From a virus, in the IMG/VR virus record IMGVR_UViG_3300025679_000009, positions 1-52,774 of that record: a DNA stretch of 52,774 nucleotides. One strand, given 5' to 3'. This document shows, piece by piece, positions 7,267 to 52,321 of the stretch; position 1 is the first letter of the stretch; each line of letters opens with the position of its first letter. The position numbers and the translations under genes were made by a program. The notes under the pieces were generated by a model, which saw only the letters and a list, made by a program, of their open reading frames with translations, was not told the DNA's origin and made no database searches.

Positions 7267-7935
7267 TTGACGACGCTTGATCAATCGCGCGCGTGGCCGT
7301 TCGGCGCGCTTAAACCTTTCAGCTATGACCTTGCGATGATCGACCCGCCTTGGCCTACCGAAATGCGGTCGCCGAAAGGTGAGGCCAAAAGCTTTGCGAG
7401 ACACTACGGAGCAATGAGCTTCGAACAGATTCGCGAGCTGCCGGTCGGGCAGCTGCTCAAGCGCGACGCCGTCGTCTTCCTGTGGTGCACCTGGCCGCTG
7501 CTGCTCGATGGCGGCGACGCAAAACGCCACTTCCGCGACCATAACGCCGGGCGCTCGCGCGTCGGCGAGTGTCTGCAGCGCTGGGGCCTGCGCTACGTCA
7601 CCGGTGGCTCCTGGCACAAGCAGACGGTGACCGGCAAGACGGCCTTCGGCACCGGCTACGCGGTGCGGTCGGCCTGCGAGCCGTTCCTCATCGGCAAGCT
7701 CGGGAGGCCGAATCATAGCCGCTCAGAGCGCAATCTGATCGTCGGTCTGGCGCGCGAGCACTCGCGCAAGCCGGACGAGGCCTTCGCCTGGTGCGAGCGT
7801 TACATGGGGCCACACGCCCGCCTCGTAGAGATTTTCTCGCGCGAGAACCGTCCGTACTGGGACAGCTGGGGCTTCGAGGCCGGAAAATTCGATCCGGTGG
7901 TCTCAGAGAATGCGGCGCCGGCGGTGGCGGCATGA
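7267..7935 (+). CDS. MT-A70 family DNA N6-adenine methyltransferase
   Basis: 222 residues. Motif DPPW (residues 26-29) within YDLAMIDPPWP is the adenine-methyltransferase signature; VVFLWCTWP and the later SERNLIVGLAREHSRKPDEA and LVEIFSR follow the MT-A70 order. It would transfer methyl from S-adenosylmethionine to adenine N6 in DNA. No restriction partner is near, so it is an orphan enzyme, probably protecting phage DNA from host restriction or mimicking host CcrM-type marks. Downstream gene overlaps by 4 bp (ATGA). Start follows a gap with CGGGGGT upstream. Confidence 0.88.
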   Translation: MTTLDQSRAWPFGALKPFSYDLAMIDPPWPTEMRSPKGEAKSFARHYGAMSFEQIRELPVGQLLKRDAVVFLWCTWPLLLDGGDAKRHFRDHNAGRSRVGECLQRWGLRYVTGGSWHKQTVTGKTAFGTGYAVRSACEPFLIGKLGRPNHSRSERNLIVGLAREHSRKPDEAFAWCERYMGPHARLVEIFSRENRPYWDSWGFEAGKFDPVVSENAAPAVAA

Positions 7936-28254: not shown

Positions 28255-30850
28255 GCTTCCGGACTGGTCCGATCTCGGCGCGACACCGAGCGTCACTGGC
28301 GCGCGGCCGATCGGCAGCGTCGACGTCAGCCCCTTTGCGCGCGGGGCTGAGGCCGAAGCCCAGGCGGGCGTCAACCTCGGCAAGGCCGTCGCCGATGTCG
28401 GCGCCGCCGGCAGCGACGTCATCCTCGACCAGGCGCGCTATCAATATGCGACCGCGAACGCCGATTTCCTATCGAAGAGCATTGATCTGAAGTCCTCGCT
28501 TGCGAACGACACCGATTATTCGACGCTCGAGCAGCGCTACACCGACGGCATCAATCAGATCCGCGACCAAGCGGCCTCGAACATCGCCCTGCCGGGCATG
28601 CGAACGCGCTTCGTTGACCTGGCGCAGCCGGAGATAGAACGCGGTGTCGCCGGCGTCCGCCAGCAGGCCTACAAGCTCGAAGGAGATGCCAATGTCGCCG
28701 ACGTGCAGCAGCAGGGCTCGACGTTCATCAACCAGGGTACGGCGGCGCCCGGCGACTCGCAGCTGCAAGACAAGCTCATCGGTGCCTACGGCGCCCGCGT
28801 CGACGGCCTGGCCGGGCGCGGCTGGATCTCGCAGGAAGCCGCGCTCAAGATGAAACAGGACTGGGCGCATCAGTACGCTCTCGCCGACGGCGTGGCGCGT
28901 GCGGATACGGATCCGCAGGGCGTCATCAACGATCTCCGCGCGGCGCCGGGTTCGGCCGACCAGATCGACAACCGCATTGTCCAGATTGAAAGCAATGGCA
29001 ATCCGCTGGCGCGGTCGAAGACGTCGAGCGCCTACGGCCTCGGCCAGTTCGAGCCGGGCACCTGGCTGCCGCTGATCCGACAGGCGCATCCCGAGCTCGC
29101 CGACAAATCGGATGCCGACTTGCTGGCGCTTCGCGCCGATCGCGGCCTCAACATGGAAATGCTGGGGCTCAATCGTCAACAGAACACCGATTATCTGCAG
29201 AAGAATGGCGTCGATGCTTCGCCCGGCAACATCTACCTCGCGCACTTCCTTGGACCGGCTGGCGCGGCCGCGGTGGCGAAGGCCTCGCCGACGGCGCCGG
29301 TGGGCGATGTGCTCGCGTCCGCCGTCGGCAAGGATAAGGCCGCGAAGATGATCGCGGCAAATGGGACGATCCTGAACGGGCAGACCGCCGGTGGCGTCGC
29401 GCAATGGGCGAGCGACAAGATGGGCGGCGTCGGGCCCGGCGGCGGCCACATCTACGACATTCTGCGTCCGGACCAGCGAGCGATGCTGCTCGATCATGCG
29501 CAGACGTCCCTGCAGCGTCAGACCGTCAGTGACTTTTCAGACTTTCAGGGCCGCGTGAAAGATAGCGAGGCGGAAGCCGCGCGCACCGGCAACGTCACCA
29601 ATCCGATCGGCCCGGAAGAATTCATTGCGCGGGCAGGGCCGGCGGCCGGTCCGCAGGCCTATCAGCAGTACCAGGCGAACATCCAGCTTGGCCGGGACGT
29701 CTCGCGGGTGGCCAAGCTCGATCCGCAGGAGCAAGCCCAGCTCATCCAGAGCTACGAGCCGAAGGCGGGCGATCCCGGTTACGCCGACGGGGTGCAGCGG
29801 CAAAACATCCTGACGAAGGCGATCGCGCAGTCGGAAGCCGAGAAGCAGAAGGATCCCGCGCAGTTTGCGATCAACCGTCTGGCGGCGAGCGGTCCGGCCT
29901 ACGACGCGCTGCAGAAAGCGCAGCCGGCCGACAGGACGGCCGCGGCGCGCAACTATGCCTCGACGACACTCATGGAGCAGGACCGCGTCGGCCTGCCGCC
30001 GGAGCAACAGCACATTCTGCCGAAGGCCTACGCCGACGGCGTCAACAAGGCGATCGACAAGGCATCCTCTGCGACGGATCCGGAGTCGCGCGTCGGGCTT
30101 ATCAACGTGGTGCGTCAAGAGGCGTCGACCTGGGGTGAGTACTGGCCGCAGGTGATGCGCGAGCTCGCGCCCGGCGTGCAGCCGGTGGTGCGCGCGATCG
30201 CCGCCGGCGCCGACGATACGGCAATGACGCGGATCCTTCGGCTCGATCCGAAGGACAACATGAAGAGCCTGCTGAGCGATCAGCCCGACACAAAGGTTTC
30301 TGCCGCTGCCGCTGCGGTCGACACGGCGGTGGCGCCGCTGCGCGCAACGCTATTGCCGAGCCAGCGCGACGGCAAGAACAGCGACTTCGAGGCCTATTCC
30401 GGTCTCGCGGGCAAACTGGCCGCGCTCTATGTGCGGGACGGCGAAGATCCGACGTCGGCGGCGACAAAGGCCTTCAACGCGCTCATCGGCAACCGCTACG
30501 ATTTCCGCGATACCTATCGCATCCCGAAGAGCGCAGGCGTGCTGCCAGACGACGTCCAGGCCGGCGCGCAGATCGCGCGCGGCCAGCTCGATCAGCTTGG
30601 CGCGCAGCCGGCGGTGAACGACATTGGCGTTTCCGATGTTAGGGCTGACTCATTCTCTAAATTCGGGCGCGACGGCAAATGGGTGACGTCGCCGAATAAC
30701 GACGGCCTCAATCTTGCCTACGGTGACAAGTTCGTGCGGCGCACCGACGGCAAGCCGCTGATGCTGAGCTGGTCGCAGCTCGGCGATATGGCGAAGGCAA
30801 ACAAGGCAAACCGGACTGATGTGGACGAGTCGGCGATGTTCACACCGTGA
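28247..30850 (+). CDS. Internal virion protein with lytic transglycosylase domain
   Basis: 867 residues from ATG 28247 (a GTG at 28238 adds three). Helical N-terminus (1-230) and an SLT domain at about 240-400: Glu248 in IVQIESNGNP is the expected catalytic acid, and AYGLGQFEPGTW gives the GLxQ motif. The remainder is long helical segments. It plays the part of T7 gp16/gp15: ejected with DNA, it cuts peptidoglycan so the channel can cross the periplasm. Coupled to the next gene through GTGA. Confidence 0.82.
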   Translation: MAKLPDWSDLGATPSVTGARPIGSVDVSPFARGAEAEAQAGVNLGKAVADVGAAGSDVILDQARYQYATANADFLSKSIDLKSSLANDTDYSTLEQRYTDGINQIRDQAASNIALPGMRTRFVDLAQPEIERGVAGVRQQAYKLEGDANVADVQQQGSTFINQGTAAPGDSQLQDKLIGAYGARVDGLAGRGWISQEAALKMKQDWAHQYALADGVARADTDPQGVINDLRAAPGSADQIDNRIVQIESNGNPLARSKTSSAYGLGQFEPGTWLPLIRQAHPELADKSDADLLALRADRGLNMEMLGLNRQQNTDYLQKNGVDASPGNIYLAHFLGPAGAAAVAKASPTAPVGDVLASAVGKDKAAKMIAANGTILNGQTAGGVAQWASDKMGGVGPGGGHIYDILRPDQRAMLLDHAQTSLQRQTVSDFSDFQGRVKDSEAEAARTGNVTNPIGPEEFIARAGPAAGPQAYQQYQANIQLGRDVSRVAKLDPQEQAQLIQSYEPKAGDPGYADGVQRQNILTKAIAQSEAEKQKDPAQFAINRLAASGPAYDALQKAQPADRTAAARNYASTTLMEQDRVGLPPEQQHILPKAYADGVNKAIDKASSATDPESRVGLINVVRQEASTWGEYWPQVMRELAPGVQPVVRAIAAGADDTAMTRILRLDPKDNMKSLLSDQPDTKVSAAAAAVDTAVAPLRATLLPSQRDGKNSDFEAYSGLAGKLAALYVRDGEDPTSAATKAFNALIGNRYDFRDTYRIPKSAGVLPDDVQAGAQIARGQLDQLGAQPAVNDIGVSDVRADSFSKFGRDGKWVTSPNNDGLNLAYGDKFVRRTDGKPLMLSWSQLGDMAKANKANRTDVDESAMFTP

Positions 30851-33645
30851 CATTCACCGACACGTTTGCCTCTCCCGATGAGACGGTGCCGATCCGCTCG
30901 TCGGATTTGCAGTCGTCGCTCGGCGAGAGCCTCGGTGCGCAGGCGGCGGAAGCGCTCGATCCGCAATCCGATATTTCCGCGGTCCAGCTTTGGCGCAGCG
31001 CGAAGTTGGCGATCGCCGCCGGCGACATGCTGCCGGGCCTCAACGCTCCCGACACTCCGCTGCCGGAGGACATCGCCAACTTCGATCAGGCGAAGGCGGA
31101 GATCCCGGATGTCCCGATCGCGGACGCCAAGGCGCAGGTCAAGCAGGCCGGCCTCGAGGGTTCGCTGCCGCTTCCGGACCAGCCGTCGATCAAGCAGCCG
31201 GTGCTGGATCTGATGATCCAGGAGGCGCAGGAGCACCGCGATCGCGATCTCGCCATCGCCCGCGGGCCGCAGGGGTTCTTTCCCGGCGCGCTCGGCTTCG
31301 CGACGTCGATCGTCGCCGGGATGATTGACCCGGTCAACATGGCCGCGTTCTCGATTCCCGTGCTCGGCGAGGCGCGCTGGGGCAAGCTGCTGGCCAACGC
31401 CGGCGACAGCCTCTTTGCCCGCGCTGGTGTGCGTGCGGCGCAGGGCGCTGCGCAGGGTGCGGTCGGCACGGCGGCGCTGCAGCCGCTCGATTACCTGATG
31501 CACACAGCCGACGGCCGCGATTACACGATGGCAGACGCGCTGCGCTCGGTGGTGATGGGCGCCGGCATGGGCGCGGCTTTTCACGCCGGCTTCGGCGCGG
31601 TCGGCGACGTGCGCGCCCGCATGGCCGGCGCGCCGCTGCCCGGGTCGCCGGAAGCCACTCTGACGCGAGCGCTACAACCGCAAACTGAAACCGCATTAGA
31701 AGGTCAGGGAGAGGCCCACGGCGACGGTGAAGTGCCTGGCATCGGTGCGAGCGCTGCCAGCGAGCCGGCGCCCGGTTCGGCGGAGGGTGCTGCACCGGCC
31801 GAGAGCGATCTTGGCTCGTTGCCGGCGGGTCATCCGGCGTACGTCCTGGCCGATCTGCCGGAGGCGGCTCGAGAAGACGTCGTCCGCGCCTCGATCGCCG
31901 ACCTGACGGCGGGGCGGCCGGGCCGCGCCGGCGAGATGCTCCAGGAGGCAGCCAAGGTCGATCCGCGGATCCGGGAGACGATCGATGCCTGGCACGGCTC
32001 GCCGCACGACTTTGACGCTTTCGATATCGGGCGCATCGGCGATGGGGAAGGCGCGCAGTCGTTCGGCCATGGCCTGTACTTTGCCGAGAACGAGGGGGTG
32101 GCGCGACGATATCGGGTCACCACCTCGGATGCGTCCTTCATTCGGAAGGTCCAGGAGATCTACGACGAGTCGTCGTCGCCGGGTGAGGCGGCGGACGCCA
32201 TCCATGAAAGCAGCGCCTTCAACCCCGGCGAGAAGCGGCTGCTTGCGACACTGAAGGATGACGACTGGCTCGGCTTCGACTATCCGCACCAAGCCGTCTC
32301 GGCTGCTCTGCGAAGCCCGCGCAATTTTGACCTTTCGCCTGAAACGCAGCGCGCGCTGGCCGATCTCGGCCGCGTGTATCGCGTGAAAATCAAGGCGGCC
32401 CACGAGCAGATGCTCGATTGGGACAAGCCGCTCGCCGATCAAAGTGCCGAAGTGCAGCATGCCGTCGGCCAGCTGCTTCCCGAAGGGAAGACAAAATGGG
32501 GATTTGCGCCGCGCACGGGCGAAGATTTTGCGCGTGCCATGCCACATCATCTTGGCGAGCCCGGGCCGACCAACAAGATGGCCAATCGTGCCAATGCGTC
32601 GCGCGCGATGCGAGAGGCAGGCATCCTCGGCATCAGATATCTCGATCAGGGCTCGCGCGGCCGCGGCGAAGGGAGCCACAACTTCGTCCTCTTCTCCGAC
32701 AAGGACGTCGAGATCACGCACAAGAACGGCGTGCCGGTCTCGCGCGCCGAGGCGAAAGAAATCAAGGCAGAGAAGCGCGCTGCAAAGCCGCAGTCGCTGC
32801 TGGAATTCCTGCGGGCCAAGGGCGGCGTCAGTAAGGACGATCCGCTCGCCGCCGATCTGTTGCAGTCCTTTGGTGGGGAGAACCCGAACATCCGCGGCAA
32901 GGGCAAGCTCGTTCGGCCGGACGGTCTCGGTCTCGACCGCCTGCGCGAGGCTGCCGTCGAGGCGGGCTACCTGCACGATCATGGCGACGAGACCGGCGGC
33001 GCTTCTCAGAGCACCATCCAGGATCTGCTCGACTCGGTCGACCGAGAGGCGAGGGGCGAGAAGCAGTTTCCGCGCGGCGACGAGCTCGCCGGCGCTGACG
33101 CGAACGCCGCGCACCTGGCGGAGCGTAGCGAGGCAGAGCGCGAGATCTACTTCCATCGGGCGCGCGAGGACATCACGCGCATGATGGACGAGCAGGGAGT
33201 CACGGCCATCCGGCCGCAGATCACGAACTTTGCCCTGCGCCTGCTCGAGCGCGGCAAGGCACGCGACGCAGAGGACGCCTTTCATCAGTCGCTCGACAAC
33301 TTCGACCTGGTCGGCAATCGCCCCCAGGTTGGCGATGCGGACATGGCCGACTGGCAGCAATTCGGGGACGTGCGGCCGGGCTACGAGGATCCGCATCTCG
33401 TCGCCGAGTCGAAGGATGCTGCGGCGACGGCGGAGCCCGCCTCCATCGATCCGGTCAAGGCGCCCACAGCCGCGGAACAAGCCGCGCGTGAGGCCGAGCA
33501 GCTACTCGCCGACATGAAGCCGCAGCTTTCCGACGAGGAATGGCACTCGCTCGAGAGCACGCTCAAGGACATCGGAGACGATAAGGAGATGCAGGAGAAG
33601 ATAGTGCGGGAAGGCGCGGCGTGTCTCGCCGCGGCTGCAGCCTAA
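30847..33645 (+). CDS. Polyvalent internal virion protein with ADP-ribosyltransferase-like domain
   Basis: 932 residues from GTG. Residues about 135-165 are hydrophobic (MIDPVNMAAFSIPV and following). At about 376-425, DAWHGSPHDFDAFD, then FGHGLYFAENEGVARRY, matches the ART-PolyVal domain of phage polyvalent proteins (H of WHGS; G-x-YF). Further motifs follow to residue 600 (LGIRYLDQGSRG, HNFVLFSD). It is packaged and ejected, so it might modify a host target early. Target and activity are unproven. Confidence 0.75.
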   Translation: MTFTDTFASPDETVPIRSSDLQSSLGESLGAQAAEALDPQSDISAVQLWRSAKLAIAAGDMLPGLNAPDTPLPEDIANFDQAKAEIPDVPIADAKAQVKQAGLEGSLPLPDQPSIKQPVLDLMIQEAQEHRDRDLAIARGPQGFFPGALGFATSIVAGMIDPVNMAAFSIPVLGEARWGKLLANAGDSLFARAGVRAAQGAAQGAVGTAALQPLDYLMHTADGRDYTMADALRSVVMGAGMGAAFHAGFGAVGDVRARMAGAPLPGSPEATLTRALQPQTETALEGQGEAHGDGEVPGIGASAASEPAPGSAEGAAPAESDLGSLPAGHPAYVLADLPEAAREDVVRASIADLTAGRPGRAGEMLQEAAKVDPRIRETIDAWHGSPHDFDAFDIGRIGDGEGAQSFGHGLYFAENEGVARRYRVTTSDASFIRKVQEIYDESSSPGEAADAIHESSAFNPGEKRLLATLKDDDWLGFDYPHQAVSAALRSPRNFDLSPETQRALADLGRVYRVKIKAAHEQMLDWDKPLADQSAEVQHAVGQLLPEGKTKWGFAPRTGEDFARAMPHHLGEPGPTNKMANRANASRAMREAGILGIRYLDQGSRGRGEGSHNFVLFSDKDVEITHKNGVPVSRAEAKEIKAEKRAAKPQSLLEFLRAKGGVSKDDPLAADLLQSFGGENPNIRGKGKLVRPDGLGLDRLREAAVEAGYLHDHGDETGGASQSTIQDLLDSVDREARGEKQFPRGDELAGADANAAHLAERSEAEREIYFHRAREDITRMMDEQGVTAIRPQITNFALRLLERGKARDAEDAFHQSLDNFDLVGNRPQVGDADMADWQQFGDVRPGYEDPHLVAESKDAAATAEPASIDPVKAPTAAEQAAREAEQLLADMKPQLSDEEWHSLESTLKDIGDDKEMQEKIVREGAACLAAAAA

Positions 33646-36402
33646 ATGCCGTCACGTCAGGATTGCATCGACGACATCGCCAAGCGCACCGGGCGATCGC
33701 GCAAGGGCGTCGAGGACATTCTCGACGACATCCTCGATCGCGCCGACGGCTACGAGCACGATGGGTTTTCGGCAGACGAGAGCTACCAGAAGGCCCGCGA
33801 CGAGAAGATCAAGGAAGTCTTCGAACGCGCCGCGCTCGAGACCCGTGGTGCCATCATGGATGCGCGCAAGCGCATCGCGCGCCAGCGCTACTATGCGGCG
33901 ACCGCGAAGGCGATCGAAAACTTGCCGATCAACACGTTGTTCCGCGATCCGGAGAAGGTGCGCGCGACGCTGAAGCGGCAAGTCGCGCGCCTTTCGCTCG
34001 AGGCGAAGCTCGTCGGCATCAACCTGCCGCTCTTCAAAGGCCGCAGCTCTGTCGATGCACAATACGTGGCGCTGCGGCGCCTGTGGGTCGGCGGCCTGGC
34101 GCGCGACCTTGAGGCGAACGGGCTGCTCAAGGTGTTTGCCTCGCGCACGATCGAGGACAAGTGGACCGAGGAGCTGTTCGAGCTCAACCGCGGCGGCCAG
34201 GGCAATCCGGGGCTGACGAAAGACGCGCAGGCGCTCTCGATCGCTAAGACGATCCAAAAGTGGCAGCGCATGTCGATGGCGGCACTCAACCGGGAAGGGG
34301 CCTGGGTTAGGTCCTATTCGGGCTACATTACGCGGTCCTCGCACGATGCGGACGCGATCCGCGCCGCCGGCCCGGAGAAGTGGGTCGCCGACACGATGCC
34401 GCGGCTCGACCTGCGGCGCACCTTCGGGACCGCCGACAAGCAGCACGCGCAGGACATGCTGCGGCAAATGTGGACGCCGCTGAAGAACGGCGACCATTTC
34501 GATTACGGCAAGCCGATCGACGAGCCGCTGCACCCGAACGTCGGGCGCATGGCCTCGGCCACGCGCGAGCTGCACTTCAAGAGCGGCAAGGACTGGCGCG
34601 CCTATAACGAGCAGTACGGCGTTGGCAATCCGACGCACACAGTGGTGCAGGCGCTGTCGATCGGCGCGCGCCGCACGGCGCTGATGAAGGAATTCGGCAC
34701 GCGGCCCAAGGAAGCCTTCGATGAAGACGTGAATTTCATCAAGGCCTCGCTGCAGCAGGAAACCCAGGCGCAGACCTCGCGGCTCTCGGCGCTCGAGCAG
34801 ACGCTGGCCTCGCCGAACGCCGATCCGAAGGCGATCGCCAAGATCGAAGCTGACATGGCGAGCCTGCGCGAGCAGATCGCCAAGGCCTCCGGCAAGTCGG
34901 AGGATTTCCAGAAATGGGAGCCGGCGCTGCGCAACCGGTTTGCGCAGATCGACGGCTCCTCGCAGCGGCCGGTTAACCGCACGCTCGCCAACATCGCCTC
35001 GAACTGGATGGCGATCCAGCGCATGGCCAAGCTCGGCCGCGTGGCGTTCACGCACTTTGCCTCGCTGCCGACGAAGGCGGCGGAGGCGCGCTACTGGGGC
35101 ATCCCGGCGGGCGAGCGCTTCGGCTCGCTGTTTCGCGGCCTGACGCAAGGGGCGGAGGGCTCGGCCAAGCGTGAGGCACTCGACGCCACTTTGGTAGGCT
35201 TTGAGCACCGCCTCGGCCACATGATGGCGATGTACGACGTCGCGGATGCGCCGGCCGGCGCGCTGGCCAAGATGGAGTCGATCTTCTTCAAGCTGACCGG
35301 CGTGTCGTCGGTCGTCGATAACCAGCGCGGCGATGCGGAGGCGATGTTTGCCTCGCACCTCGGTGCCAAGCGCGGCACGGCCTTCGCCGACATCGGCCCG
35401 AAGGAGCAGCGCGTGCTGCGCGGCTTCGGTCTGGGCGAGGCCGAATGGAAGGCGTTGCACGGCGTCGACTGGTCGACGTTCGGCGACCGCACCTATCTGA
35501 CACCCTCGGACGCGCTCAAGCTCTCCGACGACCAGGTGCGCGCCTACATGAAGGACGCGCAGGGCGGCGCGCTCGGCCGGCAGGCGCCGAACGCCGACGA
35601 TATCGACAAGGCGCGGCAGGATCTCGCGCTGCAGCTCGCGACCGCCTACACCGACCGGGCCGGCTTTGCGATCCCGATGCCGTCGGCGCGCATTCGCGCG
35701 ATGATGTTCGGCAAGAATTTCGAGCCGGGCACGGGACTAAACACCGCGCTTAAGCTGATCTATCAATTCAAGCTGTGGCCGGCGGACATGATCGTGCGGG
35801 CCTGGGGCCGCGAGATCTACGGCACGATCGGCGATGGCCGCATGGACAAGGTGGCCGGCCTGGTCGAGTTCGCCGTCGGCTCGATCGTCTTCGGGGTTGC
35901 CTCGGAGGCGGTGCGCGAGGCGATCCAGGGCAAAAACCCGCTCGCCGAGCTCGAGCACTCGCCCTTCGGCACCATCGTCAAAGGCGGCCAGCGGTCAGGG
36001 TTTGGTTCGCTCGTTGGTGACTTCCTGCTCGGCGAGTTCGATCGCCACGGGTTTTCGGCTGTTGGGTCTCTTGCCGGGCCGACCTTCAGCCAGATCGACA
36101 TCCTGATGGATCTGCTGCACGCCGGCGGCCGCACCAAGGATGGCACCTTCGGCGCGACGGCGATGCGCGAGCGCGCCGCGGACGCAATTCGCCTGGTGCA
36201 CGACAACACGCCGTACATGAGCCTGTGGTCGCTGGGCTTAGGCCTCGACACGCTGATCTGGCACCGCCTGCAGGAATGGATCAATCCTGGCTACCTGGCG
36301 CGCACCGAGCAGCGCCAGAAGCAGCAAGAGGGTGCCCACTTCATCGTGTCGCCGGCGAAAACGGACCAGTGGATCACCGGTCGGTCGGCAAGCCCGTTCT
36401 AG
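33646..36402 (+). CDS. Large internal virion protein
   Basis: 918 residues starting right after the stop of the previous gene. Mostly helical, with a coiled coil at about 360-420 (TSRLSALEQTLASPNADPKA and following) and a C-terminal hydrophobic stretch (AGLVEFAVGSIVFGVASEAV). It is the last large gene of the ejection group, the place of T7 gp16. No catalytic motif found. Its last 40 residues resemble the small gene that follows. Confidence 0.7.
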   Translation: MPSRQDCIDDIAKRTGRSRKGVEDILDDILDRADGYEHDGFSADESYQKARDEKIKEVFERAALETRGAIMDARKRIARQRYYAATAKAIENLPINTLFRDPEKVRATLKRQVARLSLEAKLVGINLPLFKGRSSVDAQYVALRRLWVGGLARDLEANGLLKVFASRTIEDKWTEELFELNRGGQGNPGLTKDAQALSIAKTIQKWQRMSMAALNREGAWVRSYSGYITRSSHDADAIRAAGPEKWVADTMPRLDLRRTFGTADKQHAQDMLRQMWTPLKNGDHFDYGKPIDEPLHPNVGRMASATRELHFKSGKDWRAYNEQYGVGNPTHTVVQALSIGARRTALMKEFGTRPKEAFDEDVNFIKASLQQETQAQTSRLSALEQTLASPNADPKAIAKIEADMASLREQIAKASGKSEDFQKWEPALRNRFAQIDGSSQRPVNRTLANIASNWMAIQRMAKLGRVAFTHFASLPTKAAEARYWGIPAGERFGSLFRGLTQGAEGSAKREALDATLVGFEHRLGHMMAMYDVADAPAGALAKMESIFFKLTGVSSVVDNQRGDAEAMFASHLGAKRGTAFADIGPKEQRVLRGFGLGEAEWKALHGVDWSTFGDRTYLTPSDALKLSDDQVRAYMKDAQGGALGRQAPNADDIDKARQDLALQLATAYTDRAGFAIPMPSARIRAMMFGKNFEPGTGLNTALKLIYQFKLWPADMIVRAWGREIYGTIGDGRMDKVAGLVEFAVGSIVFGVASEAVREAIQGKNPLAELEHSPFGTIVKGGQRSGFGSLVGDFLLGEFDRHGFSAVGSLAGPTFSQIDILMDLLHAGGRTKDGTFGATAMRERAADAIRLVHDNTPYMSLWSLGLGLDTLIWHRLQEWINPGYLARTEQRQKQQEGAHFIVSPAKTDQWITGRSASPF

Positions 36403-36414
36403 CGGACAGCCGGC

Positions 36415-36675
36415 ATGACCGTCACCGATCGTCGTGGCACCGTCATTTCGGCGAGCGACCCGGAGAACATGCCCTTCGCCAACGCCATCTATACCAAGAT
36501 GGCGATCGACTACCTGATCTACTACGAGACGCTGGAATGGCTGTCGCCCGGCTATCTCGAGCGCATGACGCGCACGATGAAAGACAAGCAGGGCATCGAG
36601 TTCGCGCTCAAGCCGCAAATCGTGCACCGGCAGGGCCTGCCGGCCGCGCTCGGCCGGGCGCTGGGCGGGCGCTGA
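36415..36675 (+). CDS. Small protein resembling the C-terminus of the upstream internal protein
   Basis: 86 residues. IDYLIYYETLEWLSPGYLER followed by MTRTMKDKQGIEFALKP aligns with the end of the upstream 918-residue protein (LIWHRLQEWINPGYLARTEQ). It seems a partial duplication kept as its own gene. Start without a strong ribosome site; 12 bases after the upstream stop. Confidence 0.6.
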   Translation: MTVTDRRGTVISASDPENMPFANAIYTKMAIDYLIYYETLEWLSPGYLERMTRTMKDKQGIEFALKPQIVHRQGLPAALGRALGGR

Positions 36676-36754: not shown

Positions 36755-38182
36755 ATGACCAGCACGCTTGTCGATCGTCTCGCCGGCGTTTCCGAGGGGC
36801 TTGCCGTCAAGGCACCTTGCGCCTGCGCCACCACGGCGAACATCACGCTCGCCGGCGAGCAGACGATCGACGGGGTGGCCGTCGCCGAGACCAGCCCGCC
36901 GACGCGCGTGCTGGTCAAGGATCAGGACAGCGCGCTGCAGAATGGCATCTACAAGGTCTCGACCGGCAACTGGTCACGCGCGGAGGACTTCGACGGCACG
37001 CGTGACGTGGTGAGGGGCACGCGCGTGCCGGTGAATTCCGGGGGCACCGTCAACGGCGAGACCGAGTGGGAGGTGACGTCGGCCGATAATCCGATCACCT
37101 TCGGCGTCAGCAATATCACCTTCGCGCAGCCCTCTTGGTCGCTGGCGGTCTCGGCGGCGGCGAGCGCGGCGACCGCGATTGCTTATGCCGCCAAGTCCGA
37201 CGGTTACGCAGCCGGCACCGACAATTCGGCGAAGGCCTGGGCGATCGGGGGCACCGGCAGCGGCCAGCCTGCCGCCGGCGATGCCAAGAGCTGGGCCCAG
37301 CTCGCCGGTGCCTATGTCACCGGCGCAAGCCTGTCGGCCTACGAATGGGCCGTTGGCACGTTCAAACGCGGCGTCGCTGGCTTCGGTTCGGCCAAGGATT
37401 GGGCGATCTACACCGGGGGCACGGTCGACGACACCGAGTACAGCGCCAAGAAATATGCCACCGACGCAGCCGCCTCCGAGACGAACGCGGCGGCTTCTTA
37501 CGCAGCCTCGCTCGTTCAAGGCGTCGTCACCGACACCGGTACCGCGCGCACGCTTTCGGCCGCCGACGCCGGCAAACTCATCGTCTTCACCAGCAACTCG
37601 GCGGTCACCGTCACCGCGCCGAACGACCTGAGCGTCGGCTTCCAATGCCTGCTGGAGCAGGGCGGGCTCGGCCAGGTGACCGTCGCGGCGGCATCGGGCG
37701 CGAGCCTGCACGGCGACATTCCCGGCGCCGAATCGACCGCCATCCGCTACGGCGTCATCGGCCTTACGGTCGAAACCAATGGCAGCGGCACGGCGGCGGA
37801 TTACCTGGTGCTCGGCCGCGCGCCGACCGCCGAAGAGCTGGCGGCGGCGATTGCCGCCATCGCCTCGCTCACCATCGATGATGTCACCGGCTCCGCCTAC
37901 ACGCTGCTGTTGGCCGATCTCGGCCGGATGAAGATGTTCACCAACGCATCCGGCTGCACGGTGATCTGCCCCGCGGACCTCCCGGCCGGCTTCAACTGCG
38001 TGATCGCGCAAGACGTGGGCGCCGGCCAAGTAACGCTGTCGGCGGCCAGCGGGGCGGCGCTTAAGAATCGCTACAGCGAAACCAAGACGCAAGGCGAGAT
38101 CGCCGCCATCGCGGTCTTTGTGCGCAGCAATTCCGACGGGGCCTCCGCCGTGTACTGGCTGCGCGGGGAGACCGGCACATGA
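36755..38182 (+). CDS. Tail fibre protein
   Basis: 475 residues with GGAG upstream. The first 125 residues (GEQTIDGVAVAETSPPTRVL and VKDQDSALQNGIYKV) form a beta-rich attachment-like head domain common to phage fibres. An Ala-rich middle (140-245) is followed by two related beta domains of about 60 residues, at about 265-325 and 375-435, sharing AxxGKL/LGRM..FTN..., GFxC and GQVT(V/L)(A/S)AASGA. It probably links the tail to the spike. The 3' end overlaps the next gene by 4 bp. Confidence 0.7.
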   Translation: MTSTLVDRLAGVSEGLAVKAPCACATTANITLAGEQTIDGVAVAETSPPTRVLVKDQDSALQNGIYKVSTGNWSRAEDFDGTRDVVRGTRVPVNSGGTVNGETEWEVTSADNPITFGVSNITFAQPSWSLAVSAAASAATAIAYAAKSDGYAAGTDNSAKAWAIGGTGSGQPAAGDAKSWAQLAGAYVTGASLSAYEWAVGTFKRGVAGFGSAKDWAIYTGGTVDDTEYSAKKYATDAAASETNAAASYAASLVQGVVTDTGTARTLSAADAGKLIVFTSNSAVTVTAPNDLSVGFQCLLEQGGLGQVTVAAASGASLHGDIPGAESTAIRYGVIGLTVETNGSGTAADYLVLGRAPTAEELAAAIAAIASLTIDDVTGSAYTLLLADLGRMKMFTNASGCTVICPADLPAGFNCVIAQDVGAGQVTLSAASGAALKNRYSETKTQGEIAAIAVFVRSNSDGASAVYWLRGETGT

Positions 38183-40920
38183 GGGCCTTCCGCGCGGGGC
38201 GGACGCTGCTGGCGACCGCCAGCCTCGCCGCCCTCCTGGTCGCGGCGCCGGCCGCGGTCGCGGCCGACAAGCCGCGCTTTGTCTGCGAGGCGGTGGCTGC
38301 GGCCACCAAGGCACCGTCGTTTGGCGCGGTCATCCTGCCGCTCGCTTTCCGCAACGCGGTGTTCGCGCGCACCAACGAGCGCGCCGGCCTGGCGATGATC
38401 CGCGGCGAAAGCGAAGCCCTCGGCATCGACTTCAGCTTCCCGACCGACGCCCGCCGCGTCGCGGTGAGGACCGGCGGCGTCACCACCGAATATGGCCTCG
38501 ACGCCTTCTTTACCAATGACTCCACCTCGCCGAAGACGGTGACCGACGCCACCGGCTTGCCGGTGTGGGCACCGCACAATCTAGTCACCAATTCGGAAAG
38601 CGGTGCGACGCAGAACGTCGCCGCCCTTGTCGTCGGGCAGGATTACATCGTCGACGTCACCGGGAGCGGCTCGGTCGCACTCACGCTTGCCGGCACCGGC
38701 ACGGCGACGGCCGGGAGCCCGGTGCATTTCACCGCCACCGGAACGACGCTGACACTGACCGTCACCGGCACCATCGCCACCATGCAGTGCAACCGCGGCG
38801 CGGTCGTGCTGCCCTATCTCAAGACCACGGGAGCCAAACGCTACGGCGTGGCAATCGAGGTCGATGCCGTCACCGGCGAGCGCTATCTGGTCGTTGAGAC
38901 CAGCGCGAGCAGCTACACCAACCTGCTGCTGAACACGAACACGCTGGCGACGCAGGACGTCACCGTCACCGCGCAATCTTATACGCTGTCGTTCTGGGGC
39001 ACCGGCACGGTCACACTCTCCGGCACCTCGACCGCCGGGCCCCTGGTCGGCACCGCCGCCGACCGGCGGGTGACGCTGACCTTCACGCCGACGGCGGGCA
39101 CGCTGACGCTGACCGTGAGTGGCAGCGTCACCTTCGCACAGTTGGAGGTCGGGCCAGAGGCGACGAGCTATTTCCCGAGCTACGCCAGCGCGGCGACGCG
39201 GGTCGCCGACACCATATATGTCACCGTCCCGTTCGCGATCACAACCACCACCACGCTGTGCATGGACTACCGTGGGACGAAAAACGATACTTCCGGCTAT
39301 GTTAACTTCGGCCTCAGCAACGGCGGCACCTCGACCGAGGGCCTTTACTTCCGCGCCGATTCGGCGGCACAGGCGCGGCACTCCAGCACCAGCGCCGGTA
39401 TCGTGACCGATCTGGCTATCGTGCCGCCCTCGGCGGCGCGCACCAAGATCGCGATCAGCGCCGGCGGCGGCAATTTGATTGCGGCCCGCGATGGGTCGGC
39501 GGCCGCGACGACGCTCACCGCCCAACCGGCGGTCACCAAGCTCTATCTCGGCTATCTGCCGGGCATTCAAAGCACCACGCGGCCGCTGCGGCTTTACGGC
39601 TGCTTGGTGCTGTCGCGCGCAATGACGCGGGCGCAGGCCATCGCATGGACGTCGCAGATTTATCCCTATGACGACGCGCTGGTGAGCGACGGCGCGACCT
39701 ACCCGAGTTACGGGCAGACCGCCTCTCCCTCATCGATCTACGTCGCCAGCACGGACACCACCTGGGTCGCCTACGAGGCCTACACCGGCGGCCAGCGCGT
39801 CACGCGCGTCTTCACCATCAATCACACGACCGGCGTCTGGACCGATCCGGTCACGGTCGGCGTCTCCGGCCTCAGCGGCGACGATCACGGCGCGCCGACG
39901 TTGATGCGCCACAGCGACGGCAAAGTGCATGTCTTTTTCGGTGGCCATATAAGCGCACTTAAGCATTCAATGACGACGACCGCCGACGATCCGAGTGCGT
40001 GGACCACTCTTGCCAGCATATGCTCCACCGGCTCCTATCCGCGCCCGGTCATGGTTGGTTCGATCATGTACGTTCTCATTAGAGGCAACGGAAGTGCGGC
40101 CGCGACTCAATATTTGAGCTATTGCACCATCGCCACTGACGGGACGGCTTCGGCCTTTACGGTGCTTTCCGACTTCGGAACAGGAACGCGCTGGTATGCT
40201 GGCGCGGCGCTGCCGGAGGAATCGACCGGCAATATCTATATCGTCGGCACGCAAGGGCAGGCGGCGACGGTGCCTTTGACCGGCACTTATGTTCTGGTCT
40301 GGAACCCCGGCGCCGGCACCATTAAAAATATCGACGGCTCGACAACGGTTGCGTCCGGCTCATGGCCGGTGGGCCTTGCGTCGCTCGACGCCAATTTCAA
40401 CATCCATCCGACGATTGCCGGCAACGAAGGCGGTGTGCCGAATGCCTGTCTGGACGCCACCGGCAATCTGCACGTCATCTTTGCCGACGGGGCAAATGGT
40501 GGGACGCCAGGCGCGATCGGGAGCTATTCTGTTTATCATACGGCGTGGGACGGATCGGCTTGGTCGGCCGATTTCCAGCTCGGCACGGCCTGGCGGTCCT
40601 ACAACGATGTCTGCCTGACGCCGAATGCCGGCGGCGGGGTCAATGCCTTCTGGACCCAGCGCGGCGAGGCTACCTTCCGCAATTGGGGCGGTGACCTGTG
40701 GAGCGCGAGCCGCGACAGCGGCGGCACCTGGGCGGCTTCCGCGGTGCTGCGCGAAGAAGCGTTTTTCGCCCTCAACGCGCCGTCAATGGTGGTCAACGGG
40801 CACGCCAATCTGCGCATGATCTGCACCGAGGTACTGCAGCAATCCGCCGACATCAGCGCCGGCATCGGCACGCTAAGGATGTTCGGCTACGGCGACGCCG
40901 GGTTCCTCAGCGCGGCGTGA
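38179..40920 (+). CDS. Tail spike / receptor-binding protein with BNR-type propeller
   Basis: 913 residues; the ATG is inside the stop of the fibre gene. Residues 1-30 look like a cleavable signal peptide (LLATASLAALLVAAPAAVAA), which is odd for a virion protein. Residues 130-500 hold two carbohydrate-binding-like beta modules (GQDYIVDVTGSGSVALTLAG and TLSFWGTGTVTLSGTSTAG). The C-terminal 400 residues resemble BNR_4-type sialidase propellers. Likely binds or cleaves surface polysaccharide. Converges with, and overlaps, the acyltransferase gene by 34 bp. Confidence 0.7.
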   Translation: MRAFRAGRTLLATASLAALLVAAPAAVAADKPRFVCEAVAAATKAPSFGAVILPLAFRNAVFARTNERAGLAMIRGESEALGIDFSFPTDARRVAVRTGGVTTEYGLDAFFTNDSTSPKTVTDATGLPVWAPHNLVTNSESGATQNVAALVVGQDYIVDVTGSGSVALTLAGTGTATAGSPVHFTATGTTLTLTVTGTIATMQCNRGAVVLPYLKTTGAKRYGVAIEVDAVTGERYLVVETSASSYTNLLLNTNTLATQDVTVTAQSYTLSFWGTGTVTLSGTSTAGPLVGTAADRRVTLTFTPTAGTLTLTVSGSVTFAQLEVGPEATSYFPSYASAATRVADTIYVTVPFAITTTTTLCMDYRGTKNDTSGYVNFGLSNGGTSTEGLYFRADSAAQARHSSTSAGIVTDLAIVPPSAARTKIAISAGGGNLIAARDGSAAATTLTAQPAVTKLYLGYLPGIQSTTRPLRLYGCLVLSRAMTRAQAIAWTSQIYPYDDALVSDGATYPSYGQTASPSSIYVASTDTTWVAYEAYTGGQRVTRVFTINHTTGVWTDPVTVGVSGLSGDDHGAPTLMRHSDGKVHVFFGGHISALKHSMTTTADDPSAWTTLASICSTGSYPRPVMVGSIMYVLIRGNGSAAATQYLSYCTIATDGTASAFTVLSDFGTGTRWYAGAALPEESTGNIYIVGTQGQAATVPLTGTYVLVWNPGAGTIKNIDGSTTVASGSWPVGLASLDANFNIHPTIAGNEGGVPNACLDATGNLHVIFADGANGGTPGAIGSYSVYHTAWDGSAWSADFQLGTAWRSYNDVCLTPNAGGGVNAFWTQRGEATFRNWGGDLWSASRDSGGTWAASAVLREEAFFALNAPSMVVNGHANLRMICTEVLQQSADISAGIGTLRMFGYGDAGFLSAA

Positions 40921-41984
40921 TGGCGAAAACCATGTCGCCGAATCGTGCGCGACAGCCATGACCGCAGTGGTCGATCGTAGGCTTCTGTCAAGACCCAGGA
41001 GAGCGCAAGGACGGTGACAATCGTCAGTGGCGTCGAAAGCAGCGACGGGTGTGCAGTCACCGGACGCCAATTGAGCCAACGTAAAAAACGCGGATCGAGC
41101 ACCGTCATGGCTGCGAGCGCCATCACTGGAAAATGTAATGCGTACACTGCGTAGGACAGATCGCCGAGTTTGGTAAAGCTTGCGCGCGCCCAGGGTTGCG
41201 GTTCGCAGTTTGCGCCAATCCAGATCAGTGCGGGAAAGAGTACCAGCGTAGCGACAAGATCGAAGACAACGCGCGGCAGCGGCGTAGCGAATAGCACGAG
41301 CAAAATCAGCAGCACCACCAGCGGGGGGGTGCGAACTGCCGCCTTTGCGCGCCACAGGCGGTAGGTGGCCGCACCGGCAAAGAATGACCAGCCGGCGCGG
41401 CCGAAACCACCAATGATGGAAGAGTCCCAATAGCTGCCGCCATTGGCATGTCTGAACAGGATCACGGTGGTTAGTAGTAGTGCTGCTGCGATGGCAAGAA
41501 CGAGCGCCAGTGCACGATTGCTGAGAAGCGGCAGCAAGGCAAACCAGCAGATATTTGCCAGCAATTCGAAGAACAGTGACCAGGAAGGTGCGTTGAAGGG
41601 GTAAAGGTCGAGGTGGAGCACGGTCGCGGCGCCGAAGGGGCTCGGCAAAAATACGACATTCAGAGCCATCGATGCGAGTGATCTGCCATCCACACCGCTG
41701 ACTACGGCAAGTGCGGTGCCGAGAACCATGCCGGCCAGATAGAGCGGGTAAAGCCGGATCAGGCGCGCCGTAATGAATTGCGCAAATGATAGCGTTCCGT
41801 CGCCATAGGCGTGCGCCAGCACAAAGCCGCTGAGAACGAAGAACAGATCGACGGCAAGGTAGCCGCCCGGCAACAGCGTCGCCGGCACGCCACCCATATG
41901 GATCATGAGCACGGTACCGGCTGCTACGCCGCGCATGGCGTCGAGCGTGAGAAAACGGCCCGTTAGAGGCATTGCTGTTGGCAT
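40887..41984 (-). CDS. Acyltransferase 3 family membrane protein (O-antigen acetylase type)
   Basis: 365 residues, with about 9-10 hydrophobic helices. Motifs of the family: FLTLDAMRGVAAGTVLMIHM (with R-G and H), GYLAVDLFFVLSGFVLAHAY, FITARLIRLYPLY, and APSWSLFFELLANICWF. Such enzymes transfer acetyl or other acyl groups to O-antigen or exopolysaccharide. As an opposite-strand gene right after the spike, it is a likely lysogenic-conversion gene that alters the phage receptor and blocks superinfection. Its base composition looks richer in A+T than its neighbours, suggesting transfer. Confidence 0.88.
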   Translation of the reverse strand: MPTAMPLTGRFLTLDAMRGVAAGTVLMIHMGGVPATLLPGGYLAVDLFFVLSGFVLAHAYGDGTLSFAQFITARLIRLYPLYLAGMVLGTALAVVSGVDGRSLASMALNVVFLPSPFGAATVLHLDLYPFNAPSWSLFFELLANICWFALLPLLSNRALALVLAIAAALLLTTVILFRHANGGSYWDSSIIGGFGRAGWSFFAGAATYRLWRAKAAVRTPPLVVLLILLVLFATPLPRVVFDLVATLVLFPALIWIGANCEPQPWARASFTKLGDLSYAVYALHFPVMALAAMTVLDPRFLRWLNWRPVTAHPSLLSTPLTIVTVLALSWVLTEAYDRPLRSWLSRTIRRHGFRHHAALRNPASP

Positions 41985-42033
41985 TCCCCATCCTACCGCC
42001 CTCGGGATCGGGCGGCAACGGCGATAAAAATAA

Positions 42034-42210
42034 GGAATCCAGCAGCTCGCGACCTACGCCTTTCCCGACGCCGGCTGGGGTTTCTATACGCTGAGCGTTG
42101 CCGCCTGCATCGCCTGGGCGGCGCTCTCGTTCGAGCTGGCCGAGCGGCCGCTGATCCGGATTGGGCGGGGCATCGGCCAGCTTGGACGAGCCGCCCGGCA
42201 GCAAATCTAG
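42034..42210 (+). pseudogene. Remnant of a different acyltransferase (C-terminal stump)
   Basis: An open frame without a start, ending TAG at 42208-42210. It encodes AFPDAGWGFYTLSVAACIAW then SFELAERPLIRIGR, the last membrane helix and E-RP-L tail typical of plus-strand acyltransferase 3 proteins. It sits directly behind the start of the full minus-strand acyltransferase and before the lysis genes, so it looks like the rest of a gene replaced by the present one. Confidence 0.7.
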
Positions 42211-42237
42211 GCTCCGCTTTTCACCCGAGGAGACGTC

Positions 42238-42567
42238 ATGGACTTTCGCTCTTTGTGGGCGCGCATCGCCACGCATTTCGCGCCGTTCTTCGACCGGCGC
42301 GCCTGGACGATCATCGCCATCTGCGCGGCCGTCGTGTGGGCGATCGACCCCGTCATGCTCAAGACGGTGGTCACCTGGGTGGTGCAGGCCGGCGTGTTCT
42401 GCGGGCTGGCGGTGATCGCCAGCCGCTATCTGTTTCCGCAGATCGACCTCGCCGAGCACGTCGCGGCCGCGCGCGCCGGCAATGTCGGCTCCGGCTTGGT
42501 GGTGCTCACGGTCGGGCTGGTGATGGCGTCGCTGTTCGTGATGATGGGCGTGTTCGGCCGCGCATGA
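42238..42567 (+). CDS. Holin-like small membrane protein
   Basis: 109 residues with GAGGAG upstream. Three hydrophobic segments: about 22-37 (AWTIIAICAAVVWAI), 40-62 (MLKTVVTWVVQAGVFCGLAV), and 83-104 (SGLVVLTVGLVMASLFVMMG). Lies immediately before endolysin and spanins, coupled by ATGA, so it probably makes the membrane holes or lets the lysis enzyme act. Length and topology suit a class I holin. Confidence 0.65.
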   Translation: MDFRSLWARIATHFAPFFDRRAWTIIAICAAVVWAIDPVMLKTVVTWVVQAGVFCGLAVIASRYLFPQIDLAEHVAAARAGNVGSGLVVLTVGLVMASLFVMMGVFGRA

Positions 42568-43475
42568 GGGGGATTGCGCTCATCCTGCTGCTGGCGCTTG
42601 GTGCCTGCCAGCCGAAGCCGGCGGTGCCGTCCGTCAAGGAAATCGGGCGTTTTGCAAACCCAGAGTGGCGTTCCGTCAACCGAACAGCGCATTTTGTCAA
42701 CCCGCGGCGCGCGGCGGCTGCGAGGATCCCGCTGCCGCGGGCGCGGCCGCGGATTGCGGCTGCGCCGGTCATGTCAGTTTCTGCGCCCGCCAAGGTGGTC
42801 GAAAAAATCGACACGCGGAAGCTCGCTAGACGGGTGCCCTTCGTTCCCGCCGGCGCCGCCAGATACGCGCCGCTGCTGGTGGCCCAGCAGCGCAGCGCCT
42901 GGCCGGCGGCGCCCGAGCCCTGGACGCTGGCCGGCCTGGTCGAGCAGGAGTCGTGCGTCTCGCTGCGCTCGAGGCGCTGCTGGAACCCGCGCGCCGAGCT
43001 GAAGACCTATCGCGAATACGGCTTCGGCTTCGGCCAGATCACGGTAGACTACAACAAAGACGGCTCCGAGCGCTTCAACAAGTTCAAGGAGCTCAAAAAC
43101 CAATACGCATCGTTGCGCGGCTGGCGCTGGGGCGCGCGCTACGATCCCGGCTACCAGCTCACGGCGGTCGTCGAGATGACGCACGGGCTGTGGCGGCGAG
43201 TGCCGGCGGCGCACGACACCGACGCGCATTGGGCCTTTGCGCTGTCGAGCTACAACGGCGGCCTCGGCAGCCTGCTGCGGGACCGCCGCCTGTGCGCCAA
43301 CTCAGCGGCTTGCGACGCGACGCGCTGGTTCGGCAATATCGAGACGCACTCGCTCAAATTGCGCGCGCCGCGCCCGGCCTATGGCGGGCAGAGCTGGTTT
43401 TCGATCAACCGCGGCTACGTGCGCAACGTGCTGACGGTGCGGCGCGCAAAATACGCACAGTTCTGGGGGGAATGA
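42564..43475 (+). CDS. Endolysin: lytic transglycosylase-like, with a lipobox
   Basis: 303 residues. N-terminal LILLLALGAC ends in a lipobox-like Cys15, so it may be a lipoprotein or signal-anchored enzyme. The catalytic part (about 115-290) has Glu129 in VEQESCVSL, GFGFGQIT, and SSYNGGLGSLLRDRR, typical of phage transglycosylases that cleave glycan strands. The first 100 residues after the signal are a basic Pro/Arg linker. Its stop overlaps the Rz start. The lipobox is unusual for endolysins. Confidence 0.8.
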   Translation: MRGIALILLLALGACQPKPAVPSVKEIGRFANPEWRSVNRTAHFVNPRRAAAARIPLPRARPRIAAAPVMSVSAPAKVVEKIDTRKLARRVPFVPAGAARYAPLLVAQQRSAWPAAPEPWTLAGLVEQESCVSLRSRRCWNPRAELKTYREYGFGFGQITVDYNKDGSERFNKFKELKNQYASLRGWRWGARYDPGYQLTAVVEMTHGLWRRVPAAHDTDAHWAFALSSYNGGLGSLLRDRRLCANSAACDATRWFGNIETHSLKLRAPRPAYGGQSWFSINRGYVRNVLTVRRAKYAQFWGE

Positions 43476-43987
43476 TGCTCGGTTTCCTCTGGCACGCGGT
43501 GACGGCCTGGGCCGGCATCGCGCTCGATTACGACTGGGCGGTGCTGATGATCGCCGCGGGCTTCTACCTCGCCGAATTCTTCGACCTGGCGGCAGCCAAT
43601 CCGTTGGCGTGGCTGCTGCGGCCGCTGCGCTATTTCGGCTACGCGCTGATCATGGCCGGCGCGGCCTACGGCTACGGCACCTGGCGCGAGGCACACGCGG
43701 TGAGCGACTGCATCTCGGCCGAACGGCTTTCCGCTGTGCAGAGCGAGCGCAACTCGCTGCAGCAGCAGGTCGATGGCTGGAAGAAGACGGCGGCTCTCAA
43801 CCAGGCGGCCGCGGAGCGGGCGAGCAAGGACAAGGAGAGGGCGGATGGGCTGCTGGCAAAATGGAAAGCGCAGGTCGGCAGGCTGTCGCAGGCGCGGCGC
43901 GCTGCTCGCGCTGCTACTGCCGACGATGACCGCCGGCTGTGCGAGCTTCTGCAAAATCGCGCCCCCGGCTGCCAGCTACGCCGCTAA
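43472..43987 (+). CDS. Rz-like inner-membrane spanin subunit
   Basis: 171 residues; the ATG overlaps the endolysin stop, with GGGGGGAA upstream. Hydrophobic N-terminus with possibly two segments (VLMIAAGFYLAEFFDL and YALIMAGAAYGYGTWR), then a coiled coil (AVQSERNSLQQQVDGWKKTA and following). This is the i-spanin layout. Its 3' third contains the Rz1 gene in another frame, the usual nested arrangement. Confidence 0.72.
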   Translation: MMLGFLWHAVTAWAGIALDYDWAVLMIAAGFYLAEFFDLAAANPLAWLLRPLRYFGYALIMAGAAYGYGTWREAHAVSDCISAERLSAVQSERNSLQQQVDGWKKTAALNQAAAERASKDKERADGLLAKWKAQVGRLSQARRAARAATADDDRRLCELLQNRAPGCQLRR

Positions 43988-44153
43988 CTGCAGGCAGCCG
44001 GAGCTCGCGTATCCGGCCGTGGTGAGACAGCAGGACCTCGGCGAGCGCTCGGGCGAGTGGGCGGCGGCGGCCAAGGTCGGCCACGATCGCATCGAGGCCG
44101 AAAACGGGTGCGTCGACGCGGTGGCGACGATGAGCGGGCAAGGGGAGAAGTGA
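43845..44153 (+). CDS. Rz1-like outer-membrane lipoprotein spanin, nested in Rz
   Basis: 102 residues from ATG 43845 with AGGAGAGG upstream, in the +1 frame relative to Rz, starting within it and running 166 bp past its end. Signal ALLALLLPTMTAGC ends in a lipobox Cys at about residue 32; the mature part has Cys and Pro-rich spots. With Rz it would span the periplasm and fuse the membranes in the last step of lysis. Confidence 0.75.
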   Translation: MGCWQNGKRRSAGCRRRGALLALLLPTMTAGCASFCKIAPPAASYAANCRQPELAYPAVVRQQDLGERSGEWAAAAKVGHDRIEAENGCVDAVATMSGQGEK

Positions 44154-44154
44154 C

Positions 44155-44445
44155 GTGTCGGAGATGAAGATCGGCCACGACAGCAAGGTCGGATCGTTAC
44201 TGCAGTCCTACTGGCCGGTGATGGTGGGCGGCGTCATGGTGGCCGTGGCCTGGGGTGCGAACACCGCGCAGATCGGCACCATAGCCGACGGCAACAAGGC
44301 CATCATCGCCAAGCTCGACAAGCTCTCCGATCAGCAGTCGATGTTTCAGGCGACGGTGGCCGCGGCGAAGGCGACCGAGGACTCGCTTGGCGGCTCGGTC
44401 GACGATCTGCGCAATCGCGTGGGTGCGCTCGAGGCGCGCCGCTAG
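44155..44445 (+). CDS. Small membrane protein at the end of the lysis cassette
   Basis: 96 residues from a GTG two bases after the Rz1 stop. One membrane helix at residues 18-36 (YWPVMVGGVMVAVAWGANT), then a coiled-coil tail ending DDLRNRVGALEARR. It could be a second holin or an antiholin, but that is not established. Its TAG stop shares CTAG with the stop of the convergent gene. Confidence 0.65.
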   Translation: MSEMKIGHDSKVGSLLQSYWPVMVGGVMVAVAWGANTAQIGTIADGNKAIIAKLDKLSDQQSMFQATVAAAKATEDSLGGSVDDLRNRVGALEARR

Positions 44446-44768
44446 ACATCAGCTTCGGCGGCCTCGGCCGCCGTCCGTGGTCCGGCCCTATCGGACATCT
44501 TGATGCCTCCCTGACTTGACGCCGCCGCTGGTCCCTCGGGGCCGGCGGCGGCCTTTTTCGCTTCGGGGAACGCGAGCTCGAGCTGCGGCGCGGCTTCCAC
44601 CGGCGCGAGGTGCGCGCACGGGATCTCGACAATGCCTTTGCAGCCGGCGACGCGCACGTGCACTACGGTCTGCAGCGGGTGCAGCTGCTCGAGCGGGCAG
44701 ACGGTGCAGGCCTGCTTGCCGCGGTGGGCGCCGCGCAGGATCCGGACGGGCGTCCGGAAGTTCGTCAG
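44442..44768 (-). CDS. Small protein with Cys-x2-Cys, possible CTG start
   Basis: 108 residues if it starts at CTG 44768, which would form a CTGA overlap with the upstream stop, matching the ATGA, GTGA and TTGA overlaps used throughout this operon. The first in-frame conventional start is GTG 44663 (73 residues), but it leaves out RTPVRILRGAHRGKQACTVC, which reads like real protein. Two cysteines (C-x2-C) lie near residue 20 and others at about 43 and 51. The function is unknown; the gene ends the right-hand operon. Confidence 0.5.
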   Translation of the reverse strand: MTNFRTPVRILRGAHRGKQACTVCPLEQLHPLQTVVHVRVAGCKGIVEIPCAHLAPVEAAPQLELAFPEAKKAAAGPEGPAAASSQGGIKMSDRAGPRTAAEAAEADV

Positions 44769-51750: not shown

Positions 51751-51883
51751 GCGGCACTCCCGATGTCAGAATCACACCTCGCTTTTACCCGGGACTTGCC
51801 CCGGTTGCGCCGGGGTTTGTCAGAATCGCAGGTAGCAATATCAATGGGTTGATGCAGGTTCGAATCCTGCTGCCCGGACGCCT
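51751..51883. promoter_or_regulatory. Leader and promoter region of the right-hand operon
   Basis: 133 bases without a gene. TGTCAGAATC occurs twice as a direct repeat (51764-51773 and 51818-51827; GATTCTGACA on the operon strand), 54 bp apart. Between them lies a hairpin CCCCGG-TTGCG-CCGGGG followed by TTT (51799-51818). A tRNA-like T-arm hairpin (51854-51870) lies at the far end without a complete tRNA. A regulator may bind the repeats; no clear promoter is seen. Confidence 0.45.
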
Positions 51884-52321
51884 TCATCCGGTGCCTCCTT
51901 GCACTGCTCGCGCGATTGCTGAGAGCGTCGCGCGTCGATCGAGACGCCCCGGATGATCCGCTCGAACCGCGGCGTAGATCGTCACGGTGAGCGCACCGAC
52001 GGCGACCTCGAAAGCGGCGCCCCCGCGTACGCGCACTCCCAGGCGTTTCACTGCCGCCAGGAACGCGTCATGCGTCAGGTCGCGTTTGGCGCGCAGCCGA
52101 TGCTCGGGCGCTGGCAGGGCGAACAGCGTCAGCTGACGCGGCGATCGACGACGGCCTTGCGCTCGAGATCGTTTCGACTCCAGAGTCGAATCCCGGGCCT
52201 TAGTGCCGTTCTGGTCCGTGCGAGGAGTCGAATCGTTGCTAGAAAAACCTTGCGAAGACCCCCGATGACGCTGCCCTGTCACGGCAGAGGCCGCGGGTTC
52301 GAGTCCCGTCGCTCCCGCCAT
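51884..52321 (-). CDS. Hypothetical protein at the right end, start uncertain
   Basis: The open frame gives 145 residues if it starts at ATG 52321, which lies across attR, with the last base from the host. The first 20 residues or so would just be the back-translation of the tRNA repeat, so a real start further in is likely, yet no ATG, GTG or TTG follows before the conserved-looking part (RQLTLFALPAPEHRLRAKRD and following: THDAFLAAVKRLGVRVRGGA). Function unknown. Confidence 0.45.
   Translation of the reverse strand: MAGATGLEPAASAVTGQRHRGSSQGFSSNDSTPRTDQNGTKARDSTLESKRSRAQGRRRSPRQLTLFALPAPEHRLRAKRDLTHDAFLAAVKRLGVRVRGGAAFEVAVGALTVTIYAAVRADHPGRLDRRATLSAIARAVQGGTG
52171..52234 (-). promoter_or_regulatory. 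Putative integrase arm-type sites, right end
   Basis: GAGTCGAATC at 52183-52192 and 52225-52234, the inverse of the two left-end decamers, plus a near copy GTTTCGACTC at 52171-52180. The near copy and the 52183 site form an inverted repeat around a 2-base centre. They lie 35-100 bp inside attR. The function is inferred from symmetry with the left end. Confidence 0.6.
52269..52320 (+). repeat. attR core (3' fragment of tRNA-Asp)
   Basis: Exact 52-bp copy of 78-129, comprising the anticodon stem to CCA. It lacks the tRNA 5' half, so it is not a working tRNA and marks the phage right end. Confidence 0.95.

Follow-up and report, generated by a model that had tools for sequence, protein, structure and literature searches.

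The closest described systems pair a tail spike gene with a gene for a surface-modifying enzyme. Shigella phage Sf6, a temperate short-tailed phage, carries its tail spike gene (gene 14) on one strand and, convergent with it, the acyltransferase-3 (AT3) type gene oac (gene 15), and O-acetylation by Sf6 gives superinfection immunity (PMC9558356). Enterobacteria phage Sf101 has a tail protein gene (gp15) with a convergent gene for the O-acetyltransferase OacB (gp16) at the equivalent site, and OacB is functional (PMC4159516). In phage CUS-3, the endosialidase tailspike gene adjoins neuO, which encodes a hexapeptide-type acetyltransferase, lies on the same strand as the spike and is phase-variable, while SGNH esterase domains serve in the receptor-binding proteins of Klebsiella prophages (PMC13123978). 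The locus described here belongs to IMG/VR record IMGVR_UViG_3300025679_000009, a stretch of 52,774 nucleotides hereafter called the window, from what is likewise a temperate short-tailed phage. Its layout, with a probable spike gene on one strand and a convergent AT3 gene, is that of Sf6 and Sf101, but oac is situated between spike and integrase and oacB before the integrase, whereas the AT3 gene of the window is placed between the spike and the holin gene, before the lysis genes; moreover, Sf101 belongs to another phage lineage, and no AT3 stump of the sort described below is annotated in Sf6.

The window spans a complete integrated prophage, flanked on either side by a short piece of bacterial DNA. 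A 52-bp att repeat located in tRNA-Asp is present in two identical copies, attL (78-129, plus strand), which constitutes the 3' part of the tRNA-Asp gene (53-129), and attR (52269-52320, plus strand), which is followed by a bacterial haloacid dehalogenase (HAD) type II gene; these repeats bear out the prophage context suggested for the acyltransferase site in an earlier, sequence-only reading. An integrase-family gene is present. Two candidate recombinases are encoded: one, of 427 aa and with no match in Pfam or NCBIfam, by a gene next to attL (495-1778), the other, a tyrosine recombinase (PF00589), by a gene further in (11894-12817). The early region also contains a gene for an MT-A70 adenine methyltransferase (7267-7935; PF05063, E 9.7e-29), and ARAGORN places a second tRNA gene, tRNA-Phe (51789-51879), within the prophage close to the right end. 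The late genes are on the plus strand in the order terminase, portal, capsid, tail, internal virion proteins, fibre, BNR protein, holin and endolysin.

The tail fibre gene (36755-38182, plus strand) has an N-terminal part that is conserved in relatives and a C-terminal part that is not. It is followed by a gene (38179-40920, plus strand) whose product contains BNR repeats and is probably the receptor-binding tail spike. Within the phage collection, this protein resembles only Rhizobium phage proteins (16 records), resemblances that hint at a host of the rhizobial type, and it bears a weak resemblance to PL25 ulvan lyase. Its N-terminus (38179-38290) looks like a secretion signal, which is odd for a virion protein; signal-like starts are also present in a fibre gene of contig L007 (13443-15320) and an SGNH gene of contig L108 (17539-18849). 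The location of the acyltransferase site beside the receptor-binding genes, emphasised in the sequence-only reading, is confirmed as far as adjacency is concerned, while the identity of the BNR protein as the spike is only probable, given this N-terminus. The lysis genes, coding for the holin (42238-42567, plus strand; phrog_8226) and the endolysin (42567-43475, plus strand; phrog_669), the latter transglycosylase-like by the names of its relatives only, complete the neighbourhood.

The gene at 40887-41984 (minus strand) encodes a 365-aa AT3 membrane acyltransferase and begins with ATG. The product matches PF01757 over residues 14-333 (E 2.5e-27; 96.2 bits, with a curated cut-off of 31) and the PHROG 3333 O-acetyltransferase family (E 1.4e-31), and it contains the R-X10-H (R18..H29), RxxR (R74-R77) and WSLxxE (W135-E140) motifs, so that the gene can be regarded as intact, as had been claimed. 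The essential AT3 motifs were defined as R/K-X10-H within TM1 together with an RxxR motif of the first cytoplasmic loop (PMC9558356); R18-H29 and R74-R77 agree with this definition. Hydropathy analysis gave nine peaks, compared with about ten transmembrane helices in the family. Sf6 Oac and the AT3 product align at the key positions but are only 25% identical, and the activity of the latter is predicted; no solved structure matched the AT3 product by sequence. The last 34 bp of the gene, which ends at 40887, overlap the 3' end of the convergent BNR spike gene, which ends at 40920. With a GC content of 0.598 and GC3 of 0.67, against GC3 of 0.80-0.93 in the phage genes measured, the AT3 gene is compositionally foreign to the phage. 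An AT-rich stretch (42022-42036) at the junction of the AT3 leader and the stump may include the AT3 promoter region; a promoter scan before the gene found no sigma-70 consensus, and a terminator scan likewise gave nothing usable.

Beyond this junction, the plus strand carries a frame of 58 open codons (42034-42210), with stops ahead of it at 42025 and 42031 and a distance of 27 bp between its end and the ATG of the holin gene. Pfam and PHROGs searches did not recognise its product, which corresponds to the last transmembrane helix of an AT3 protein according to a C-terminal profile built from 39 AT3 loci in genomes belonging to the same class as a Rhodospirillaceae MAG. The score against this profile is 21.8 bits (E 6.7e-5), compared with 10.2 for the best of 3000 shuffles of the stump and 9.1 for the best unrelated one among the C-terminal tails of 5090 other ORFs; comparable scores were obtained by true AT3 genes only, and the few poor rows of the profile would be expected to lower the score, not to raise it. 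In a six-frame scan of the whole window, two AT3 segments stand out, namely the gene at 40887-41984 and the stump. An origin of the stump by inverted duplication from the AT3 3' end was ruled out, as no inverted copy was found, and the stump thus derives from a different gene. The sequence-only reading of the frame as the C-terminal stump of a different acyltransferase therefore stands on the C-terminal profile and on the lack of a start codon: neither ATG nor GTG nor TTG occurs in any of the 58 codons. The single transmembrane helix, the coding-like GC3 (0.83 in its own frame) and the position just ahead of the holin gene would also suit a lysis-cassette gene for a small membrane protein, e.g., an antiholin-like one, whose translation relies on coupling or on a non-standard start, but such a protein is very improbable in view of the absence of usual start codons, the specific similarity to AT3 C-termini and the lack of the stump before the holin in L013, L014 and L022 (contigs discussed below). 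A search for related phages in which the stump forms an independent gene with a start codon gave none. The earlier presence of a plus-strand AT3 gene at this site is well supported, judging by the stump, whose phage-like GC3 suggests that it is the older resident and the present AT3 gene the newcomer.

Relatives were found via the internal virion protein and the endolysin. IMG/VR 3300028558_000035 (contigs L008, L014 and L106) is 78% identical to the window over 30002-36461 and 81% over 42864-44447, and hardly aligns between these regions; IMG/VR 3300037424_001203 (L013 and L107) aligns in the N-terminal part of the fibre gene as far as 37103, and the alignment resumes at 42278, within the holin gene. 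This alignment gap places the C-terminus of the fibre, the BNR protein, the AT3 gene and the stump in one variable stretch (37104-42277) without DNA homology to L107, flanked by the conserved fibre N-terminus and the holin. Each of the two relatives has a minus-strand gene directly ahead of the holin gene and adjoining the last fibre gene, but the product of this gene is a hexapeptide acetyltransferase in L008 (PF00132, E 1.4e-16), resembling the CUS-3 enzyme, the fold of which is unlike that of the AT3 protein, and an SGNH/GDSL esterase in L013 (PF13472, E 2.7e-13). The latter recalls the link between SGNH esterase chemistry and receptor-binding genes in Klebsiella prophages, where, however, the SGNH domain is within the tail fibre and not encoded by a separate minus-strand gene. 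Contig L002 contains a minus-strand methyltransferase-like gene between two fibre genes, and L022, which is siphophage-like and has a related holin-endolysin pair, contains a minus-strand AT3 gene (1131-2159) among tail genes; this AT3 gene overlaps the end of the upstream plus-strand gene. Both flanks of the window are syntenic with L106 and L107, and the overlap of the AT3 gene with the spike end is just what is seen in other contigs where cargo genes meet the ends of fibre genes, so a chimera of metagenome assembly at the junction of AT3 gene and stump, which might be suspected from the metagenomic origin of the record and the sharp change in composition there, appears very unlikely.

Since related phages keep other sugar-ester enzymes at this position, it appears, as far as can be judged by sequence comparison, to be a place where genes for host-surface modification are swapped. 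The gene swap proposed in the sequence-only reading thus finds partial agreement with the data: an intact AT3 gene, a remnant of another AT3 gene and a swap-prone site are all present, but a direct replacement is not borne out, as a full plus-strand gene was not found in relatives, and O-antigen acylation with a change of serotype would be a prediction. Scans of viral contigs and of phages with the stump revealed no full plus-strand AT3 gene, and a stump scan of 385 genomes of one class gave no full gene either, both weak hits being in unrelated sequence. AT3 searches of the relatives found none with a full plus-strand AT3 gene at the site, a scan of viral contigs with the AT3 protein gave no match, other relatives found via the internal virion protein had no AT3 gene, and a class-level search with the latter protein yielded distant prophages only. 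A one-step, gene-for-gene replacement of the plus-strand AT3 gene by the present one would be one way to account for the arrangement; most likely, the stump was left over from an earlier cassette.

Taken together, the data favour the AT3 gene as a probable lysogenic-conversion (moron) gene of the prophage, masking the receptor of the spike, with the stump as the residue of a previous cassette. This reading is based on the layout of Sf6 and Sf101, the superinfection block in Sf6 and the SGNH esterases in receptor-binding proteins, and by this analogy the enzyme may change the receptor used by the adjoining spike. The leader of the AT3 gene would drive its expression in the lysogen, and the product would carry acyl groups through the inner membrane to a polysaccharide of the cell surface; the lysogen would then mask the receptor used by the spike and keep superinfecting phages out, in the manner of Oac in Sf6. 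The AT3 gene would be exchanged together with the spike, and recombination of the present segment into the site would have removed the earlier plus-strand AT3 gene of the previous cassette except for its final 58 codons.

Peptidoglycan that is O-acetylated is resistant to lytic transglycosylases, and an AT3 enzyme acylating peptidoglycan or another envelope glycan could work with the lysis genes and shield the lysogen from lysins, leaving the receptor unaltered. The AT3 gene directly precedes the holin and endolysin genes, the relatives have enzymes here that attach or cleave acyl esters, and relatives of the endolysin are annotated as transglycosylases, to which is added a weak match to the MltF profile (E 0.27). 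Nevertheless, such a role seems unlikely: the cargo genes are on the strand opposite to the lysis operon, O-antigen is the target of the best characterised relatives (Sf6 Oac and Sf101 OacB), and the assignment of the endolysin as a transglycosylase is weak.

As to the lysogenic-conversion reading, this kind of arrangement is already known from Sf6-like phages; what is new is the phage lineage, the AT3 remnant and the repeated occurrence, at a single site, of acyl-ester enzymes unrelated to each other, and the pairing of spike and surface modifier is seen outside enterobacterial P22-like phages. The occurrence of unrelated folds with related chemistry at one site, along with a fossil remnant, suggests repeated turnover, so that receptor change in the lysogen and receptor use by the spike could be studied as one exchangeable unit. 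The recurrence of acyl-ester enzymes is suggestive only, because the phages sharing the site, with the holin-lysin pair and the fibre layout, are few (n=3). A broader, tentative proposal is that the site between the receptor-binding genes and the holin might be a dedicated cargo position for enzymes adding (AT3, hexapeptide) or removing (SGNH) acyl esters of envelope glycans, exchanged repeatedly with the spike, the stump then being a direct fossil of one turnover. Upstream of the variable stretch, an 86-aa ORF (36415-36675) encodes another version of the C-terminal end of the internal virion protein whose gene comes just before (phrog_684, E 1.7e-11), which indicates a partial duplication, and L013 contains a piece similar to this ORF (78% match).
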